Below, piece by piece: positions 13,252 to 53,856 of a stretch of DNA of 55,553 nt. The notes below the pieces were generated by a model, which was not told where the DNA came from, did not search any database, and worked only from the letters and a program-made list of their open reading frames with translations. This DNA comes from a virus: positions 1-55,553 of the IMG/VR virus record IMGVR_UViG_3300023265_000002; one strand, given 5' to 3'. Position numbers and translations under genes: made by a program. The first letter of the stretch is position 1; every line of letters starts with the position of its first letter.

Positions 13252-13577
13252 ACCTCAAATGGACCCGCGACGCGCTCACCGTCGCCGTGACGGCGGCCGC
13301 GGCCTTCCGGCTCACCCGTCTGTGGCTGCGCGACAGCCTGCCCGGAGTGGTCCACGCCCGCGAGGCCGCCGTCCGCGCGCTCGAGGAGCGCGCCCCCGAC
13401 GGCGAGGAGCACCCGCTGCTGCCGCTCACCTACTGCGCCTGGTGCGCTGGCTTCTGGATCTCGGCCGCCGTGGTCGCCGTCGCCAGCACTCCTGAGCTGG
13501 CTCCCCTGTGGAGGCCGCTGTCCACCGTGCTCGCCGTGAGCGCCGTGGTCGGTGTGGCATCCGCGCACGACGAATAG
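13248..13577 (+). CDS. DUF1360-like membrane protein, 109 aa
   Basis: GTG 13248 in a GTGA overlap. Residues 8-25 are helical. LTYCAWCAGFWISAAVVAVAS (split about residues 63-83) has the two-cysteine, Trp-rich membrane segment of the DUF1360 phage/Bacillus family, followed by a second hydrophobic helix at about 90-105. Role in the family is unknown. Its place just before the portal is common in actinophages. Confidence 0.65.
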   Translation: MNLKWTRDALTVAVTAAAAFRLTRLWLRDSLPGVVHAREAAVRALEERAPDGEEHPLLPLTYCAWCAGFWISAAVVAVASTPELAPLWRPLSTVLAVSAVVGVASAHDE

Positions 13578-13587
13578 GAGCGACGAC

Positions 13588-16452
13588 GTGCCCGTGACCG
13601 AACGGGGCCGAGTAGCCGCCCAGGCCTTCCGCCAGGCGGCTACCGCGGCCGCCCCCCCGCCCAGGGAGCCTGCAGCCGCGGCCTTCGCCGCGCGCCCAGG
13701 TGAGCCACGGCGCACGGCTCCGAAGGTGATGCGGGCGTCCGGGGCCCGCATCGACAGCAGCAACCCGGACGCCGTGCGCTCGCTGATCGCGGGCAGGCGC
13801 AGCCAGCAGTGGCAGGCGCTGGCCTGGGGCTACCGGGACATGATCGGCGAACTCCGCTACGGCCTGCAGTACCGGGCGCGTGCGATCAGCCGCGTGCGGT
13901 TCTTCGTCGCGCAGATCGTCGGCGACGACGACGAGCCCATCCCGCTGTCCCTGCGCAACGACGAGGACGCCGAGAAGCGGGCCCGCATCACCCTGCCGCC
14001 CGCGCTCTGCCAGGCCGCCGAGGAGGAACTCGCCCGCCTGCCGCTGGACGCGGGTTACCAGTTTCTCGGAGTCTGGTCGGAGAACTTCGACGTCGCGGGC
14101 GAGTGCTACCTGCACGGGTTCTACGACGAGTGGACCGGTGAGGAGCAGTGGAAGATCCGCTCGGTCGACGAGGTCGAGTTCGGCACCGACGGCCGGACCG
14201 TGCACCTGATCGACGAGACCGTGCCCGGTGGAATCGGCCGGCGGATCGACCTGTCCGACGAGGGCGGCGAGGAGCTGTACCGGCTGTGGGTGCCGCACCC
14301 GCGACGCAGTCACCTCGCCGACTCGGCGCTGCACGCGATGATCGGCACGATGGAGGACATCTGCCTCATCGGCCGCGAGATGCGCGCAGTGATGCGGTCC
14401 CGGATCATGGCCAACGGCGTGATCTTGATGCCCGATGGCATGACGATGATGCGCAACGTGCGCGAGGACGCGGACGGCGACGAGGAGGACTCGCCGTTCA
14501 TGGCCGAGTTCACCGAAGCGATCAACGCGCCGATCGCGAACGAGGGCGACCCCGGCGGCACGGTGCCCGTGGTGCTGACCGGCAGCATCGAGGACATTCA
14601 GGCGTGGCGTCACGAGCGCCTCGAGCGCGAGGACTCGGAGGAGCTGAACGACAAGCTCGCCGCGTGTCTCGGCCGCCTGGCCGCTGGGATGGACATCCCC
14701 CCGGAGATCCTCAAGGGGATGGGGGACGCGAACCACTGGACCGCGTGGCAGATCGACGCGTCAACCGCGCGCCACCACATCGAGCCCGGCGTCCGGCTCA
14801 TGGCGGACAGCCTGACCGGGGCGCTGCTGCGCGCGGCTCTGCTCAAGCGCGGTTTCCCCATCGACCAGGTGCGGCAGGTCCGGACCTGGTACGACCTCGG
14901 CACCCTGACCGAGAACCCGAACCGGCGGCAGGACGCGCTCGACGCACGCCGCGAGGGCGCGATCGGCAACGCCTCGTTCCGGCGCGCGCTCGGCTTCAAC
15001 GACGGCGACGCGCCGACGCCGCAGGAGGTCGTCGAGATGGTCGCCCTCAAGGCCGGTTTCGATCAGGCCACGGCGACCGCGCTGCTGCGCTACCTGGTGG
15101 CCAACGACCCGGACCAGCCGTTCGAGTTCCCCGCGGCCGCCGAGCAGGGGGCCCCCGCTCCGGCGCTGCCCGCGGGCACTCCGCCGCGCGGTCCGGCCGG
15201 TCCGGCGGATGGGCCCGGCACGGTGCCGAGCACGGCCCCACCTGCCATCGCGGCAAGTGCTCATGAGAGCGCTCTCATGAGGGTCACTGCACCTCAAGTG
15301 CCCTACCTCGGTTTGTCCGGACAGGCTTTCGCGACCGTCCCAAGTGGACGCCAGCATCAGGCCGACGAGCAGTACCGCATCGCGCTCGACGAGTCCCGAC
15401 GCCTCATGGAGGTAGACCGCACCCTGCGCGACACCCTCCTCGCCGCGTGCGACGCGGCCATGACCCGCGCGCTCGAGGTCGCCGGGGCCCGCCTGCGCGG
15501 CAAGGCGACCGCCGACGCCACCCTGCACGCCGAGCTGCGCGGCATGAGCGTGCTCGTCCTCGGCCGTCACGTCGGCCGCGAGCGCGCCCTCGCCCTCAAC
15601 GCTGACGACGACCACCTGCTGCGCGAGGCCTTCGCCCAGCTCGGCACCCTGTTCACGAAGTGGGTGCTCGCCGCGATCGAGAACGTCGTCGAGCGCGTGC
15701 TGCAGCTCCTCGGCCTCGACGCCGAGTCGCGCGCCGGACGGGCCGCGGCGAAGCGGATGCGCGACGACATGGGCAGCAGGGTCGACGACGGCTGGTCGCG
15801 GCTGCACGACGGCCTGCGCGACCGGGCGTCGAAGCTGCTCTTCGAGGGCGAGGACGACGAGGAGTTGCCCGGCGAGATTCCCCCCGGCGCGGTCCCGCCG
15901 TACCTGCTGCGCACCGCGCTCGCCATCGTCGGCGGCCTCCCGGAGACCTCCGGCGGCCTCGACGAGTACGGCCGGTCGGTCACCGGGGAGCCGGTCGGCG
16001 GCCTCGCCAACGGCGACACGGTCCGGCGCGAGATGGAGCAGCACGGCGCGGTCGAGCTGGGCTACCTGTGGGTGTACGGCATCACCCTGGACCCGCGGAA
16101 GTTCGACCCTCACTGGGACCTCGAGGGCGCGAAGTTCGCCGACTGGTCCGACCCGAAGCTCGAGACGGCGGGCGTGTACGGCGGCAAGTTCGCGTGGGTC
16201 GGCACCCACTTCCGGCCCGGCGATCACCGCGGCTGCATGTGCGACTACGTCCCCGCCTACGCGGTCCCCGCCTACGCCGAGCAGGTGCGGGAGCGCCTGG
16301 CGGTTCCCACTCGCCAAATGGCGGACCTGATCAAGCTCGCCGAGAGCGACGACGCGGCAGGCCGCACCGGCACCACGGCGCAGATCATGCGCGACCAGCA
16401 CGAGCAGATTCAGACCCTGCAGGCACGATTCCTCGGAGGTAAGCGGCCATGA
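13588..16452 (+). CDS. Portal protein fused to a MuF-like minor head protein
   Basis: 954 aa from GTG 13588, chosen for TAGGAG seven bases upstream. Residues about 45-520 are an actinophage portal: the dodecameric ring through which DNA enters the head and to which terminase and connector dock. Residues 520-600 are a Pro/Ala-rich linker. Residues 620-954 are helical and end in a MuF-type domain with H880-R-G-C883-M-C885. Portal and MuF are normally separate genes, the MuF protein joining the portal inside the head. At the linker the G/C content drops and a perfect 22-bp palindrome (15260-15281) is translated, suggesting the fusion join. Confidence 0.88.
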   Translation: MPVTERGRVAAQAFRQAATAAAPPPREPAAAAFAARPGEPRRTAPKVMRASGARIDSSNPDAVRSLIAGRRSQQWQALAWGYRDMIGELRYGLQYRARAISRVRFFVAQIVGDDDEPIPLSLRNDEDAEKRARITLPPALCQAAEEELARLPLDAGYQFLGVWSENFDVAGECYLHGFYDEWTGEEQWKIRSVDEVEFGTDGRTVHLIDETVPGGIGRRIDLSDEGGEELYRLWVPHPRRSHLADSALHAMIGTMEDICLIGREMRAVMRSRIMANGVILMPDGMTMMRNVREDADGDEEDSPFMAEFTEAINAPIANEGDPGGTVPVVLTGSIEDIQAWRHERLEREDSEELNDKLAACLGRLAAGMDIPPEILKGMGDANHWTAWQIDASTARHHIEPGVRLMADSLTGALLRAALLKRGFPIDQVRQVRTWYDLGTLTENPNRRQDALDARREGAIGNASFRRALGFNDGDAPTPQEVVEMVALKAGFDQATATALLRYLVANDPDQPFEFPAAAEQGAPAPALPAGTPPRGPAGPADGPGTVPSTAPPAIAASAHESALMRVTAPQVPYLGLSGQAFATVPSGRQHQADEQYRIALDESRRLMEVDRTLRDTLLAACDAAMTRALEVAGARLRGKATADATLHAELRGMSVLVLGRHVGRERALALNADDDHLLREAFAQLGTLFTKWVLAAIENVVERVLQLLGLDAESRAGRAAAKRMRDDMGSRVDDGWSRLHDGLRDRASKLLFEGEDDEELPGEIPPGAVPPYLLRTALAIVGGLPETSGGLDEYGRSVTGEPVGGLANGDTVRREMEQHGAVELGYLWVYGITLDPRKFDPHWDLEGAKFADWSDPKLETAGVYGGKFAWVGTHFRPGDHRGCMCDYVPAYAVPAYAEQVRERLAVPTRQMADLIKLAESDDAAGRTGTTAQIMRDQHEQIQTLQARFLGGKRP
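15260..15281. repeat. Perfect 22-bp palindrome at the portal-MuF junction
   Basis: Each 11-base arm reads CTCATGAGAGC and its exact complement, with no spacer. It lies in the low-complexity linker of the fused gene, and a 10-bp palindrome TGTCCGGACA follows at 15314-15323. It could be the relic of an intergenic site or a recombination joint. Confidence 0.7.
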
Positions 16453-18860
16453 CGGCACCTACGATCGAAGCGCCCGAAGTCGACGAGGAGCTGCCCGTCG
16501 AGGACGTCCCGGCCGAGGAGCTGCCCGCGGCTCCGACCACGATGCCGGAGGGCGCGAAGCCGATCAGCCTTCCCGTGATGGCGATCGAGGGGATGGACAC
16601 CGCCGACGGCCGTTGGCTCGAGCCCGGAGGCATCAGCCACCGAGCACTGCCCCTGTCCCTGCTCGCGCAGGTGCGCACCCCGGACGGCGGGGGCGGAGGC
16701 CACGACAACGCCTACATCGTCGGCGCGATCACCGAGATGGTGCGTCGACCGGGCCCGGAGGTCGTGCAGAAGACGACCGGCCAGCCGTTCCCCGAAGGCA
16801 CGTTCGTCTGGTCCGGGAAGGGCTGGATGTACCCGGACGTGCCGGAGGGCAAGAGCGCTTACCAGATGGTGATGGACCGGGCGCTCTCCGGGAACTCCGT
16901 CGACCTGTCGGACCTGGTCGTCGAACTCGAGTACCCGGAGGACTCCAACCCGGACGACCCGAACGAGCGCCCCTCGCGGATGCGCATGATGCAGGCCGTC
17001 ATCGCGGCGAGCACCCTGGTCGCGCAGCCCGCGTTCGCGGACGCGTACGTCGAGGTCGACGGCGAGCTGATGGTCCCGGACGGCGGGCAGGTGATCACGG
17101 CCTCCGCCGTGTCGTTCCGCGCGATCGGTCTGGACTCGCACTGCGCCCCGTGCGCGCTCGGCCTGGGCCTGGCGGACGGCGAGGAGGACATCGTGCCGGG
17201 CAGCGAGGCCGACCCGGACGTGCAGGTCGAGCCGGACGAGAAGCCTGCCCACACGGGCGGCATGGTCGCGCTCGTGCCAGCCGACCCGACGCTGCTGGCC
17301 GTGCCCGGCGGCGACCCGGCCGAAGAGCTGCACATGACGCTGGCCTACCTCGGCGACGACGTCACCGGCTGGGATGGCGAGATCGTCGCCGCGGTGCATC
17401 AGCGAGCGCTGAGCATCACGGACCACTCGCTCGAGGGCGCGCCCGGCGGGCCCGTCGAGGAGGTCGCCGTCGGCGACTACCGCGGCCCCGGTCAGATGGG
17501 GCCGGTCACGTTGAACGTGTTCGCGCACGCCCTGTTCAACCCGAACGGCGGCGCGGACGGGCAGGAGCCTGCGACGGTCTACCTCTTCGACGGGTCGGAG
17601 CAGCGTGGCACGGCGGAAGCGATTCAGTCGGAGGTCGTTTACCGGTTGCGCGAGCTGCTCGGCGAGCTGCGATTCCCGGAGCAGCACGAGCGCTGGGAGC
17701 CCCACGTCACCGCGGGCTACGGAGTTGAGCCGAGCGCGCTCAACTTTACCGGTCCCGTGACCTTCGACCGGCTGCGCGTCGCACTCGGCGGGAACGTCAC
17801 CGACTACCCGCTCGGCGGAGGCGAGCCGATGGTCGCCGCCATCGCCCCCCCGCCCCTACCGGCGGAGGCCTTCCACATCCCGGAGCCCGACGGTCCGCAG
17901 GCGCTGGCCATCACCGAGGGGCCCGACGGCAGGCACTACCTCTCCGGCCACATCGCGGCCTGGGGGGTGTGCCACATCGGGTTTCCGGGGCAGTGCCGCA
18001 CCGCCCCCCGGTCGCCGTCCGGATACGCCTACTTCCACACGGGCGCAGTGCTCACCGACGCGGGCGAGCTGGCGGTCGGGCAGATCACGCTCGACGCCAG
18101 CCACGCCGAGCTGACCAGCAACGCGCAGATGGCCGCGCGGCACTACGACCACACCGGCACGGCGGCCGCCGACGTCCGGCTCACCGACGGCGAACACGGC
18201 ATCTGGGCATCGGGGGTGGTGCGCGGCACGCTCACGGCCGAGCAGCTCCACCGGTTCCGGGCGTCCGCCGCGTCCGGCGACTGGCGGGCGGTGCGCGGGC
18301 AGCTCGAGATGGTGGCCGTGCTCAGCGTCAACGTGCCCGGCTTCCCCGTGCCGCGGGCCCGCGTGGCGTCCGGCGCACCCATCTCGCTCGTCGCCGCCGG
18401 CGCTCTGCCCGCGAACGTGCCGGACGGGCAGCTCGGCCTCAACCGGGCCGACCGCGAGCTGCTCGCGTGGGCCCGCGAGAAGATGCTTGCCGAGCGCCAG
18501 GCGACCGCCCTCGCCGAGCTGGACGCGCTCGTCGACGTGGGCGCGCTGCACGAGGGCGCGCTCGCCGAGCTGGACGAGGTGTTCGCCGACTGGCCTCCGC
18601 TGGTCGACGACCTCGCCAACTGGGTGGAGAAGGCGGGCGGCCTGCCGAAGTACATCAAGCGCATCGCGAAGCACCTGCAGGAAAAGGGGATGGACCAGTC
18701 GCAGGCCATCGCCACGGCGGTGAACGCAGCCAAGAAAATGTGCTCGACTGGCGACACCAACTGGCCCGGTAGCCAGGAGGTGAACGCGGGGAGCCGCGCG
18801 GAGGCGTGTGCCGCGGTCGAGGAGTGGGAAGCCAAAAAGGCAAAGGCTACGGAGGAGTAA
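16449..18860 (+). CDS. Capsid maturation protease with an inserted 2H phosphoesterase domain
   Basis: 803 aa, ATG overlapping the portal stop. Residues 35-230 and about 475-640 match the actinophage head-protease type: SGHIAAWGVCHIGFPGQC, AARHYDHTG and SGDWRAVRGQLEMVAVLSVN are its hallmarks. Between them, residues about 275-455 hold two H-x-T motifs, H295-M-T297 in LHMTLAYLG and H419-V-T421 in EPHVTAGYG, the signature of 2H phosphoesterases (LigT, CPDase, Acb1). The C-terminus (KYIKRIAKHLQEKGMDQSQA) is the small helical domain often attached to such proteases. The protease trims the prohead. The 2H domain may act on cyclic or 2',5'-linked nucleotides, which is inference. Confidence 0.85.
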   Translation: MTAPTIEAPEVDEELPVEDVPAEELPAAPTTMPEGAKPISLPVMAIEGMDTADGRWLEPGGISHRALPLSLLAQVRTPDGGGGGHDNAYIVGAITEMVRRPGPEVVQKTTGQPFPEGTFVWSGKGWMYPDVPEGKSAYQMVMDRALSGNSVDLSDLVVELEYPEDSNPDDPNERPSRMRMMQAVIAASTLVAQPAFADAYVEVDGELMVPDGGQVITASAVSFRAIGLDSHCAPCALGLGLADGEEDIVPGSEADPDVQVEPDEKPAHTGGMVALVPADPTLLAVPGGDPAEELHMTLAYLGDDVTGWDGEIVAAVHQRALSITDHSLEGAPGGPVEEVAVGDYRGPGQMGPVTLNVFAHALFNPNGGADGQEPATVYLFDGSEQRGTAEAIQSEVVYRLRELLGELRFPEQHERWEPHVTAGYGVEPSALNFTGPVTFDRLRVALGGNVTDYPLGGGEPMVAAIAPPPLPAEAFHIPEPDGPQALAITEGPDGRHYLSGHIAAWGVCHIGFPGQCRTAPRSPSGYAYFHTGAVLTDAGELAVGQITLDASHAELTSNAQMAARHYDHTGTAAADVRLTDGEHGIWASGVVRGTLTAEQLHRFRASAASGDWRAVRGQLEMVAVLSVNVPGFPVPRARVASGAPISLVAAGALPANVPDGQLGLNRADRELLAWAREKMLAERQATALAELDALVDVGALHEGALAELDEVFADWPPLVDDLANWVEKAGGLPKYIKRIAKHLQEKGMDQSQAIATAVNAAKKMCSTGDTNWPGSQEVNAGSRAEACAAVEEWEAKKAKATEE

Positions 18861-21037: not shown

Positions 21038-22735
21038 GTGGACATCGCGGAAATCCTGACTCGGCTCCAGGATGCAACCCCCCAGGAGCTGAACGCGGCA
21101 CTCGCCGCCATTCGCACGGCCAGCGCCCAGTACACCGGCACCCCGACCGCGGAGTCCGCGGCCGCCGTGACCGAGCTGGCGACGCAGGCGCGGCAGGTGT
21201 CGGGCGAGCTGTCCCGGCGCGCCGAGCTGGCCAACACCCAGGCCGCGCAGCTCGCCGAGCTGCAGGCGCTGACGGAGACGCCCGCCCCGGAGCCCGAAGT
21301 GGTCCCGGAGCCGCAGGCCGACCCGCCCGCGGCCGACCCGGCACCCGAGGGCGACCCGGCTCCGGTCGAGCCCGCGGCCGACCCGCAGGCCGTCACGGCT
21401 GCAGGGCGTCGACTGGGAGGCACCCAGCCGCAGACGCCGATCGCGCCCATCGCGCGCCCGCGGGCGACCGCGACCACGGTGGCGCTGCCCGGCTCGAGCC
21501 TCGAGGGCGAGCAGCAGCTCACCCGGCGCGGCATCGCGGAGGCCTTCGCCCGCCGGAACGACCAGCTCCGACGCGCGCCGTCCAGCGTGCGCGCCGACAT
21601 GGTCCGCATCGTCACGCGGTACCCGGAGGAGCGGCACCTCGGCGCGAACGCGGACGCCTTCACGAACATCGAGAAGGTGGAGCGCGTCCAGAACGACGTG
21701 CTCAGCCGGAGCGCTCAGCAGAACGCGCTCGTCGCGGCTGGCCTGTGCGCCCCGCTCGAGGTGCTCTACGACATCCCCGTGCTGGGCGACGAGGACCGTC
21801 CGGTCCGCGACGCGCTGACCCGCTTCGGCGCTGACCGGGGCGGCATCACCTACCGCCCGGCGCTGGACGGCGTCACCCAGACGGGCGGCATCGGCACGTG
21901 GACGAAGGCGAACGACGTCGCCGACCCGCTGGTGCCGAAGACCTGCGTCGAGATCGCGTGCCCCGGCATCCTGACCGCCGAGGTCGAGGCCACGTACATG
22001 TGCCTCACGTTCTCGAACATGTCCTCGCGGTTCGACCCGGAACAGATGGACGCGAGCATCCGCGCGCAGCGGATCGCGCACGCCCGGTTCTCCGAGAACA
22101 AGCTCCTCACCCAGCTTCGCGCGGGCAGCAAGCCGCTCTACACGAACCGCCTGCTCGGCGCGGTGCGCGACATCCTGGCCACCCTGGACAAGGTGACGGC
22201 GTACTTCCGCAACGTGCACCGTCTGGCGCAGAGCGCTTCGCTGCGCGCCATCCTGCCCGCGTGGGCGCAGAACCTGATGCGCGCCGACATGGTCCGGCAG
22301 ATGGTCGGCGACGGCCCGACCGTGCTGGCCATCGCGGACGCGATGATCGACGAGTGGTTCCGGGTGCGGAACGTCAACATCACGTGGCACCTGGACGGCA
22401 TCGCCGGTCGCACGCTGGCCACGCCGACCCCGGACGTCGTCATCCCGGACCAGTTCTACGCGCTCGCCGCGGCGCAGGCCGAGGTGCCCGGCTTCCCGGA
22501 CGTCGTCGAGATGATGCTGTTCCAGGAGGGCTCCTGGCTCTACCTGGACGGCGGCGAGCTGAACCTCGGCCTGGTCCGGGACAGCACGCTCAACGCCGAC
22601 AACCGGTTCCAGACGTTCTCGGAGTCCTTCGAGATCGCGGCGAACCGCGGCATCGAGTCCATGTCGGTGAACATGGCCGTGCAGCCGACCGGCCAGTCCG
22701 CGGCTACGGTCACGACCGCATCGGCCGCCGACTAG
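21038..22735 (+). CDS. Major capsid protein with N-terminal scaffold domain
   Basis: 565 aa from GTG 21038, with GGAGAGG upstream. Residues 1-75 are a helical, probably coiled scaffold (ILTRLQDATPQELNAALAAI), 80-150 an Ala/Pro/Glu linker. Residues about 165-565 form the HK97-like capsid fold of actinophages, with E-loop and A-domain segments such as NQFYALAAAQAEVPGF-like and DGGELNLGLVRDS. The scaffold part is normally removed by the prohead protease (16449 gene). It is followed by a stem-loop, giving high separate expression. Confidence 0.85.
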   Translation: MDIAEILTRLQDATPQELNAALAAIRTASAQYTGTPTAESAAAVTELATQARQVSGELSRRAELANTQAAQLAELQALTETPAPEPEVVPEPQADPPAADPAPEGDPAPVEPAADPQAVTAAGRRLGGTQPQTPIAPIARPRATATTVALPGSSLEGEQQLTRRGIAEAFARRNDQLRRAPSSVRADMVRIVTRYPEERHLGANADAFTNIEKVERVQNDVLSRSAQQNALVAAGLCAPLEVLYDIPVLGDEDRPVRDALTRFGADRGGITYRPALDGVTQTGGIGTWTKANDVADPLVPKTCVEIACPGILTAEVEATYMCLTFSNMSSRFDPEQMDASIRAQRIAHARFSENKLLTQLRAGSKPLYTNRLLGAVRDILATLDKVTAYFRNVHRLAQSASLRAILPAWAQNLMRADMVRQMVGDGPTVLAIADAMIDEWFRVRNVNITWHLDGIAGRTLATPTPDVVIPDQFYALAAAQAEVPGFPDVVEMMLFQEGSWLYLDGGELNLGLVRDSTLNADNRFQTFSESFEIAANRGIESMSVNMAVQPTGQSAATVTTASAAD

Positions 22736-52056: not shown

Positions 52057-53856
52057 GTGACGTCCGCGCTGTTCTCGCGCCTCGCGGACCGGTTCGAACA
52101 ACGGGTGAACCCGAAGCCGAACGAGACCCTGCTCCGCTTCCCCACCCCCGGCGAGCTGGCGCGCTTCGTCCGCAACGACACGGTTCAGACCCCGATGCTG
52201 GACAAGTTCGACGAGGCCATCGTCCTCGCCGACAAGGGCGAGCAGCGACGTTGGATCATCAACTGCCCCCCGCAGGAGGGCAAGAGCACCCGCGCGCAGG
52301 CGGCCGCCCTGTGGCTACTGCTGCGCGACCCGACCAGGCGCATCGCGTTCGCCTCCTACGAGCAGTCCCTCGCCCGCGTGTCCGGCCTCGCCGTGCGCCA
52401 GTACCTCGAGACGCACGGCTCCGGCTACCTCGGCGCTCGCCGCGACGCGGACCGGAAGGACGTCCTCGGCCTCGCGCTGGACCCGGTCCGCGGCGAGGCG
52501 ACGAAGTGGGCGCTCGCGAAGACCCCTACCCTCCCGCTGCCCGGAGGCGTGATCAGCGTCGGTGTGGGCTCCGGCTTCACCGGCCGTCCGGCGGACGTCC
52601 TGTTCATCGACGACCCGATCAAGGACGCGCAGGCCGCGGACTCGCCGAAGATCCGGCAGAACGTGATCGACTGGTACCTCGCCGTCGCGTCGACCCGCCT
52701 GTCCTCCGACGCGATCGTGATCGTGGTCCAGACCAGGTGGCACGAGCAGGATCTCGCGGGGTGGCTCGAGGCCGAGGACGACCCGGACGAGCCCGCCTGG
52801 CGGAAGGTGGCCGTCGCCGCGCAGGCGATGAAGCCCGACCCGGAGGCGCAGCCCCCGATCGGCGAGGACCCCCTCGGCCGCAAGCCCGGCGAGTTCATGA
52901 TCTCGGCTCGAGGCCGGACCGCCGAGGACTGGGAGAAGATCAAGAAAGCCCAGGGTCGCGGCACCTCGCGCTGGTGGTTCGCGATGTACCAGCAGCGCCC
53001 CGCCCCGCCCGCGGGCGGCGTGTTCCAGCGCGAGTGGTTCCGGCGCGACCGGCTCACCGAGCGGCCGCCGATGAAGCGCACCCTCGTGATGGTGGACCCT
53101 GCGGACAACGAGGGCGACGGCGACGAGGCGGGCATCATCGTCGGCGGCGTGTCGACCGACGGCCGGTATGCCGTGCTCGCCGACTGGTCCGGGCACTACA
53201 CGATCGACCAGTGGTTCCGGCGCGCCTACCTCGCGTGCTTCGAGTTCGACGCCTCCGCCGTGTGCTGGGAGGCCAGCCTCTCCGGCCTTCGTCGCTCGGC
53301 GGCCTCGACGTGGAAGCGCGTCCGCGAGGAGGCGCGCGTCCTGGTCGCCGCGTGGAAGCACGTGCACGGGGAAGACGCCGTGTTCCCGGAGCGCGACCAG
53401 CACCCGCGTGCCGCCGTGCTGGTGGTCGCCTGCGAGATGCTCGCCCGCGAGGAGGACGACAAGCAGGACGCGATGGCGCAGCGGCAGAAACTGGTCCAGC
53501 TCTGGCCGTACGTGCGCGCCATCCGCTCCGCCCCGCGCACCGGGCCCCCGCTCAAGTCGGTCACGGCGAAGGGCAGCAAGACGCAGCGCGCCGAGTTCAT
53601 CGCCCCGCTGTACGACAACCGCGAGGTGTCCCACGTCGGGCACCTCGCCCAGCTCGAACACGAGATGTCCACATGGCAGGTCACCCAGAAGTCGCCCAAC
53701 CGGATGGACGCGAACGTCCACCTGCTCACGGAGCTGTCGCGCTCCGACGGCGGCTCGCTGCAGCGGGCGTCCGGCCCGGACCTGCAGCGTCACGGGGGCG
53801 TGCGCCAGGCGCAGCAGGTGCCCACGACCAGCGTCGGTAGCAGGGGGTGGCGATGA
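52057..53856 (+). CDS. Terminase large subunit
   Basis: 599 aa from GTG 52057, right after the small subunit. N-terminal ATPase: N69-C-P-P-Q-E-G75-K76-S77-T is Walker A, LFID185-D186 Walker B. C-terminal nuclease: MVD347PADNEGDGD, with the acidic residues of the RNase H-like site, continues to about residue 560. Pumps DNA into the prohead through the portal and cuts it. The tail is low complexity. The stop overlaps the next ATG (ATGA). Confidence 0.93.
   Translation: MTSALFSRLADRFEQRVNPKPNETLLRFPTPGELARFVRNDTVQTPMLDKFDEAIVLADKGEQRRWIINCPPQEGKSTRAQAAALWLLLRDPTRRIAFASYEQSLARVSGLAVRQYLETHGSGYLGARRDADRKDVLGLALDPVRGEATKWALAKTPTLPLPGGVISVGVGSGFTGRPADVLFIDDPIKDAQAADSPKIRQNVIDWYLAVASTRLSSDAIVIVVQTRWHEQDLAGWLEAEDDPDEPAWRKVAVAAQAMKPDPEAQPPIGEDPLGRKPGEFMISARGRTAEDWEKIKKAQGRGTSRWWFAMYQQRPAPPAGGVFQREWFRRDRLTERPPMKRTLVMVDPADNEGDGDEAGIIVGGVSTDGRYAVLADWSGHYTIDQWFRRAYLACFEFDASAVCWEASLSGLRRSAASTWKRVREEARVLVAAWKHVHGEDAVFPERDQHPRAAVLVVACEMLAREEDDKQDAMAQRQKLVQLWPYVRAIRSAPRTGPPLKSVTAKGSKTQRAEFIAPLYDNREVSHVGHLAQLEHEMSTWQVTQKSPNRMDANVHLLTELSRSDGGSLQRASGPDLQRHGGVRQAQQVPTTSVGSRGWR

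Follow-up and report, generated by a model that had tools for sequence, protein, structure and literature searches.

What is a predicted phosphoesterase of the 2H superfamily doing inside a viral head-assembly protein? The question is raised by a virus contig from IMG/VR, 55,553 bases long (the window, which here means this whole stretch of DNA), in which an open reading frame of 803 amino acids lies between the portal gene and the major head gene; an identical protein is also encoded on one further contig. The fusion is carried by an actinobacterial phage. The features needed for the analysis are the following:

13552..16452, plus strand: portal protein with a C-terminal extension (phrog_776, 2.3e-90); its gene runs into the start of the polyprotein gene
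16449..18860, plus strand: head-morphogenesis polyprotein, 803 aa, a late protein with the order S78 protease domain (A), 2H domain, domain B, helical C-terminus
16536..17093, plus strand: domain A, about residues 30-215, assigned as S78-type prohead serine protease (S78 in relatives, conserved H85 and S150)
17094..17246, plus strand: linker, residues 216-266, predicted disordered (pLDDT <50 at 215-266)
17250..17828, plus strand: 2H phosphoesterase domain, residues 268-460 (profile matches, conservation, predicted fold)
17331..17339, plus strand: first HxT motif, H295-M-T297 (H and T invariant, 32/32)
17703..17711, plus strand: second HxT motif, H419-V-T421 (H invariant, 32/32; T in 26/32, C in 4, A in 2)
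17718..17720, plus strand: Y424, at the position equivalent to LigT Arg130 and T4 Acb1 Tyr118 (sequence alignment)
17886..18416, plus strand: domain B, residues 480-656, in no Pfam family (conservation; named 'head maturation protease' in PHROGs)
21038..22735, plus strand: major head protein (phrog_777, 1.6e-65)

Identification of the 2H domain

The first-pass annotation had placed a 2H domain at 17250-17830 of this head-morphogenesis gene, and both the call and its boundaries are borne out. H295-M-T297 and H419-V-T421 are the sole H-x-T/S triplets in the 803-aa protein. Taken as proof by itself, the HxT pair was rejected, given that two HxT triplets lying 50-160 residues apart also occur in 10% of composition shuffles of the polyprotein; the full flanking pattern of both motifs was found in 0 of 5000 shuffles. 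It is the combination of conservation, matches to 2H-family profiles and a confident 2H fold that lifts the call above chance. Conservation of the motifs among homologues, by which the annotation had proposed to judge its claim, is high: H295, T297 and H419 are unchanged in every one of 32 homologous 2H domains, a set that takes in copies of the window's own domain and spans several architectures with identities down to ~22%, and T421 is the one motif position that varies. In one 2H subgroup (L025, L026, L074 and L076) the second motif reads H-x-C instead of H-x-T (HICAGY), with the catalytic histidines kept, a natural active-site variant.

Profile searches gave a consistent picture. The isolated 2H segment is matched by PF13563 (2'-5' RNA ligase superfamily) with an E-value of 0.0029-0.0036, which lies under the Pfam cut-off, and the same family matches all 14 related segments; TIGR02258 matches 11 of these 14, the window reaching 14.7 bits where the cut-off is 65.7. 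When a profile of the 14 segments was compared with the PDB, the matches were Thermus LigT (1iuh, 2e-6), PH0099 (1vdx, 2e-5), Deinococcus CPDase (5h7e, 3e-4) and an Acb1 (0.005): by this profile comparison, the significant PDB matches are 2H enzymes. The stand-alone homologue gp74 of Rhodococcus phage E3, searched against the PDB as a single sequence, gave no match. In a viral library search, 'RNA ligase' proteins of Gordonia and Mycobacterium phages came first.

The structure prediction that had been suggested as a check, with comparison to Acb1 and LigT, returned a 2H fold carrying both motifs. The AlphaFold2 model of the domain, computed from a 21-sequence alignment, has a pLDDT of 86 and a pTM of 0.83, with core strands 34-40 and 157-162 (model numbering) starting at the HxT motifs. 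The best 47 matches of a PDB fold search with this model are all 2H-superfamily structures, including LigT, Acb1, CPDase, YjcG, Usb1 and ASCC1 as well as AKAP18, rotavirus VP3, poxvirus cGAMP PDE and mitoribosomal AKAP7-like chains. Both the profile and the fold comparison rank Thermus LigT first among PDB matches, and Acb1 (7t27) is second by fold E-value (1.6e-5). Judging from the model, residues 268-460 almost certainly adopt the 2H fold.

Is the domain also an enzyme? The 2H segment is under purifying selection, with a dN/dS of 0.13-0.49 in close pairs, below 1; values for the neighbouring segments are 0-0.24, and in most close pairs the 2H segment evolves faster than its neighbours. This faster evolution, together with the loss of the second threonine in 6 of 32 homologues, would fit an inactive, purely structural 2H fold, for example a head assembly or spacing module. 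Such a role appears very improbable to us: both catalytic histidines and the first threonine persist without exception despite the low identities, and many otherwise similar head proteins do without the domain. We take the 2H domain to be very probably an active enzyme.

Domains A and B and the linkers

The annotation had further described the 2H domain as inserted between the two halves of a head protease, and this description did not survive closer analysis. Among the domain A homologues, 14 of 35 match PF04586 (Peptidase_S78; best 6.5e-5) and one matches S77, whilst the window's own domain A has no match to Peptidase_S78 or S77 at E 0.1; S150 is present in 100% and H85 in 93% of the homologues, and a fold search with the full-length model yielded weak matches to herpesvirus proteases. 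On this evidence from relatives, domain A by itself is assigned as an S78-type prohead protease. Domain B (~175 aa) is well conserved in its own right, exhibiting 31 invariant columns in 24 sequences, with the motifs CH..C, HYD, SGDWR and VN..GF (conserved residues H501, C508-H509, C516, H552, H565-Y-D567 and S609-G-D-W-R613), and occurs in >60 head polyproteins, some carrying 2H and some lacking it. When 24 members were compared with Pfam, neither a family nor a protease match was found for domain B, and comparison of domains A and B by hhalign gave a probability of 0.3%, with no detectable relation between them. A and B as halves of one protease were thus rejected, and the 2H domain does not interrupt a protease fold: A is the protease domain alone and B is an unrelated domain. 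Domain B is possibly a head domain with a catalytic or metal-binding role that has so far gone undescribed. Predicted disordered linkers bound the 2H domain on both sides (215-266 and 457-466), and in the AlphaFold model of the full-length polyprotein (pTM 0.36) domain A is confident and the placement of the domains relative to each other is not.

Distribution and domain architectures

A survey of the kind that the annotation had called for, covering 78 viral contigs plus ten phage records, turned up proteins with and without the insertion. The A-2H-B order of the window recurs in seven other distinct loci, whilst nineteen distinct proteins exhibit the order 2H-A-B, many of them preceded by MuF (MuF-2H-A-B). 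Gordonia phage Kwekel has the order B-2H: its gene 17 (L008:2765-5611) contains no detectable S78 domain A. At its end, the Kwekel gene 17 protein carries imperfect GGKLVSFGDGVAVYDDGTETDGKQW-type repeats. A stand-alone 2H gene directly follows the portal gene in Mycobacterium I3, Rhodococcus E3, Gordonia Skog and Mycobacterium Phrappuccino, stand-alone 2H genes adjoining portal genes in large phages. The domain is missing from 33 distinct proteins, and some of the phages concerned could carry 2H as a separate gene. On the domain B tree, the presence of 2H requires 13 changes by parsimony, at least 3 of them on strongly supported branches. The 2H module is optional and mobile, and its repeated gain and loss fits an accessory effector, not an essential part of assembly.

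A tblastn search with the 2H segment found matches in 350 phage records, in which the proteins are mostly labelled RNA ligase, head maturation protease or capsid maturation protease, and among the 2H-bearing actinophage records are phages cultured on Mycobacterium smegmatis and Gordonia terrae. Coverage of the window protein stays under 80% in every named phage record. Alignment A1 offered no stretch from which a conserved-pattern search could be built. Searching genome contigs for bacterial or prophage copies with just two short peptide patterns from the full-length family alignment confirmed none. Proteins of Gordonia, Streptomyces and Mycobacterium phages (phrog_2659, phrog_18402) carry homologous 2H domains with 28-40% identity over 90% of the length and are annotated as 'RNA ligase' or as 'capsid maturation protease and MuF-like fusion'; their 2H domain lies beside domain B or stands alone near the portal gene, a domain order unlike that of the window. 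'RNA ligase' is a misleading family name, a holdover from the earlier labelling of LigT as a 2'-5' RNA ligase.

Fusions of this general kind are not without precedent. In phages, according to Iyer et al. (2017, PMC5512222), 2H domains occur both within polyvalent proteins and as genes of their own; these authors described fusions to MuF or portal domains, noted that phage 2H domains never occur with RNA ligases, and proposed either Usb1-like RNase action or the degradation of immune nucleotides. The resemblance to their 2H-MuF/portal fusions is close, as in both cases a predicted effector 2H domain sits on a head protein, has solo counterparts and is associated with no RNA ligase; in the window, however, 2H lies between the S78 domain and domain B and not directly on MuF or portal, and the MuF-2H-protease-B arrangement is seen in other relatives of the window protein. 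The general idea is accordingly a rediscovery of the 2017 proposal, whereas the domain order is new. A 2020 survey of Microbacterium phages reported MuF-protease and MuF-VIP2 toxin fusions (PMC7302621), which makes fusions of effectors to head proteins a known theme.

Candidate substrates

The annotation had likened the motifs to those of LigT, CPDase and Acb1 enzymes. This kinship holds for the 2H fold and the motifs; it does not extend to the cut-offs of the Acb1 family PF23474 and of TIGR02258 or to Arg130. In E. coli LigT, Arg130 lies five residues past the second histidine and coordinates the nucleophilic water and the phosphate (PMC5283653). This column is invariant as Arg in 55 ThpR sequences and is occupied by Tyr118 in 28 Acb1 sequences; in the phage 2H family it holds Tyr (26/32) or Gln (5/32), with one gap. 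Plain hydrolysis of 2',3'-cyclic phosphates is less favoured as a result, Arg130 being replaced by Tyr or Gln and the Tyr being that of Acb1. LigT/ThpR and the window do share the fold and a very similar first motif (NLHLTLAFLGE in ThpR, ELHMTLAYLGD in the window). Membership of the typical LigT/ThpR group was nevertheless rejected, on the grounds of the Arg130 replacement and the unreached TIGR02258 cut-off.

With T4 Acb1 the window domain has in common the 2H fold, the HxT/HxT tetrad, the tyrosine five residues past the second histidine and a phage origin, although Acb1 is free-standing with its own ligand contacts whereas the window domain is fused. These contacts (Y12, W74, F107, E141 and W147; PMC9117128) are near-invariant across 28 Acb1 sequences, and sequence alignment places no like residue in the window 2H domain opposite any of the five; the W74 position has an aromatic residue one column away, and structural superposition could alter the outcome for W74. 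PF23474 has no match in the window at E 0.1, and the best relative (L007) attains 19.8 bits at a cut-off of 27. Membership of Acb1 was likewise rejected, based on the unreached PF23474 cut-off and the five ligand contacts lacking an aligned counterpart. Profile comparison revealed no clear preference of the phage 2H family for Acb1 over LigT.

These results bear on the possibility, also raised by the annotation, that the domain processes RNA or RNA ends, either as a LigT/CPDase-like 2',3'-cyclic phosphodiesterase or as a Usb1-like RNase with host or phage RNA as its target. The nearest profiles (PF13563 in 14/14 segments, TIGR02258 in 11/14 with the window far under its cut-off) and Thermus LigT as best PDB match speak for RNA processing, and RNase action would fit MuF/portal fusions resembling the PBECR RNase fusions of Iyer et al. 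(2017, PMC5512222). The Tyr/Gln in place of LigT Arg130 speaks against it, as does the lack of RNA-repair partners: RNA ligase (PF09414; RtcB PF01139) and the AAA_33 kinase have no match in the record, a search that does not cover T4-type ligases given that the PF09511 control was itself unmatched. We regard RNA processing as rather unlikely, and the sequence evidence leans away from classical RNA-end healing. That the substrate is an immune nucleotide would come close to an even chance whilst falling just short of it; anti-signalling activity is our best guess for the 2H domain.

Possible action in the head and in the host cell

Our preferred explanation, held tentatively, is that the 2H domain is a catalytically competent, optional cargo domain of the head polyprotein. 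It would be made late together with the S78 protease domain and would enter the prohead along with it, where the flexible linkers may let it be freed; its site of action could be the prohead, or the cytoplasm before assembly. The two HxT histidines would drive attack on a 3'-5' or 2'-5' phosphodiester, via a 2'-OH or water, by which signalling oligonucleotides produced by the host (of the CBASS, type III CRISPR or OAS-like kind) would be destroyed or RNA would be cut. Virion delivery of the domain is plausible, whilst its presence in mature virions seems to us possible but on balance doubtful. A scheme in which the phage pre-loads an immune-nucleotide hydrolase via the prohead protease fusion, maturation frees it, and injection with the DNA lets it act before phage gene expression must be considered improbable.

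In the literature searched, no proteomic report of 2H proteins in virions was found, and the record of Rhodococcus phage E3 tags several proteins as 'structural protein', gp74 not being among them. The missing label of gp74, the second threonine lost in 6 of 32 homologues, the missing Acb1 contacts and profile scores that do not favour Acb1 over LigT all count against the cargo explanation. Head proteins can set off CBASS, and the 2H enzyme might act late within the infected cell, removing signals raised on sensing capsid assembly, with packaging being incidental. The head-gene context of 2H would suit such late protection, as would the unlabelled gp74 and the stand-alone 2H genes in the same operons, which have no need of a packaged partner; co-packaging is suggested by fusion with a protease whose normal destination is the prohead, and we rate late protection as rather unlikely.

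Should the cargo domain indeed be delivered with the genome, nucleotide-signalling immunity could be disarmed at time zero, too early for inhibitors such as Acb1 that are expressed after infection. With ~350 public actinophage records exhibiting the domain, cultured phages included, the question could be taken up with existing laboratory phages.

Further observations on the contig

The C-terminal extension of the portal protein (13552-16452) is long and contains a GDHRGCMCDYVP stretch that appears MuF-like by eye; neither Pfam nor a MuF HMM built from relatives matched MuF in the portal C-terminus of the window. A predicted DNA methyltransferase at 8340-8924 (phrog_757, 3e-64) possibly affords anti-restriction protection. 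The terminase large subunit is encoded at 52057-53856, near the right end of the contig and far from the head genes (13.5-22.7 kb), and because of this distance the contig may have been opened within a circularly permuted or circular map.
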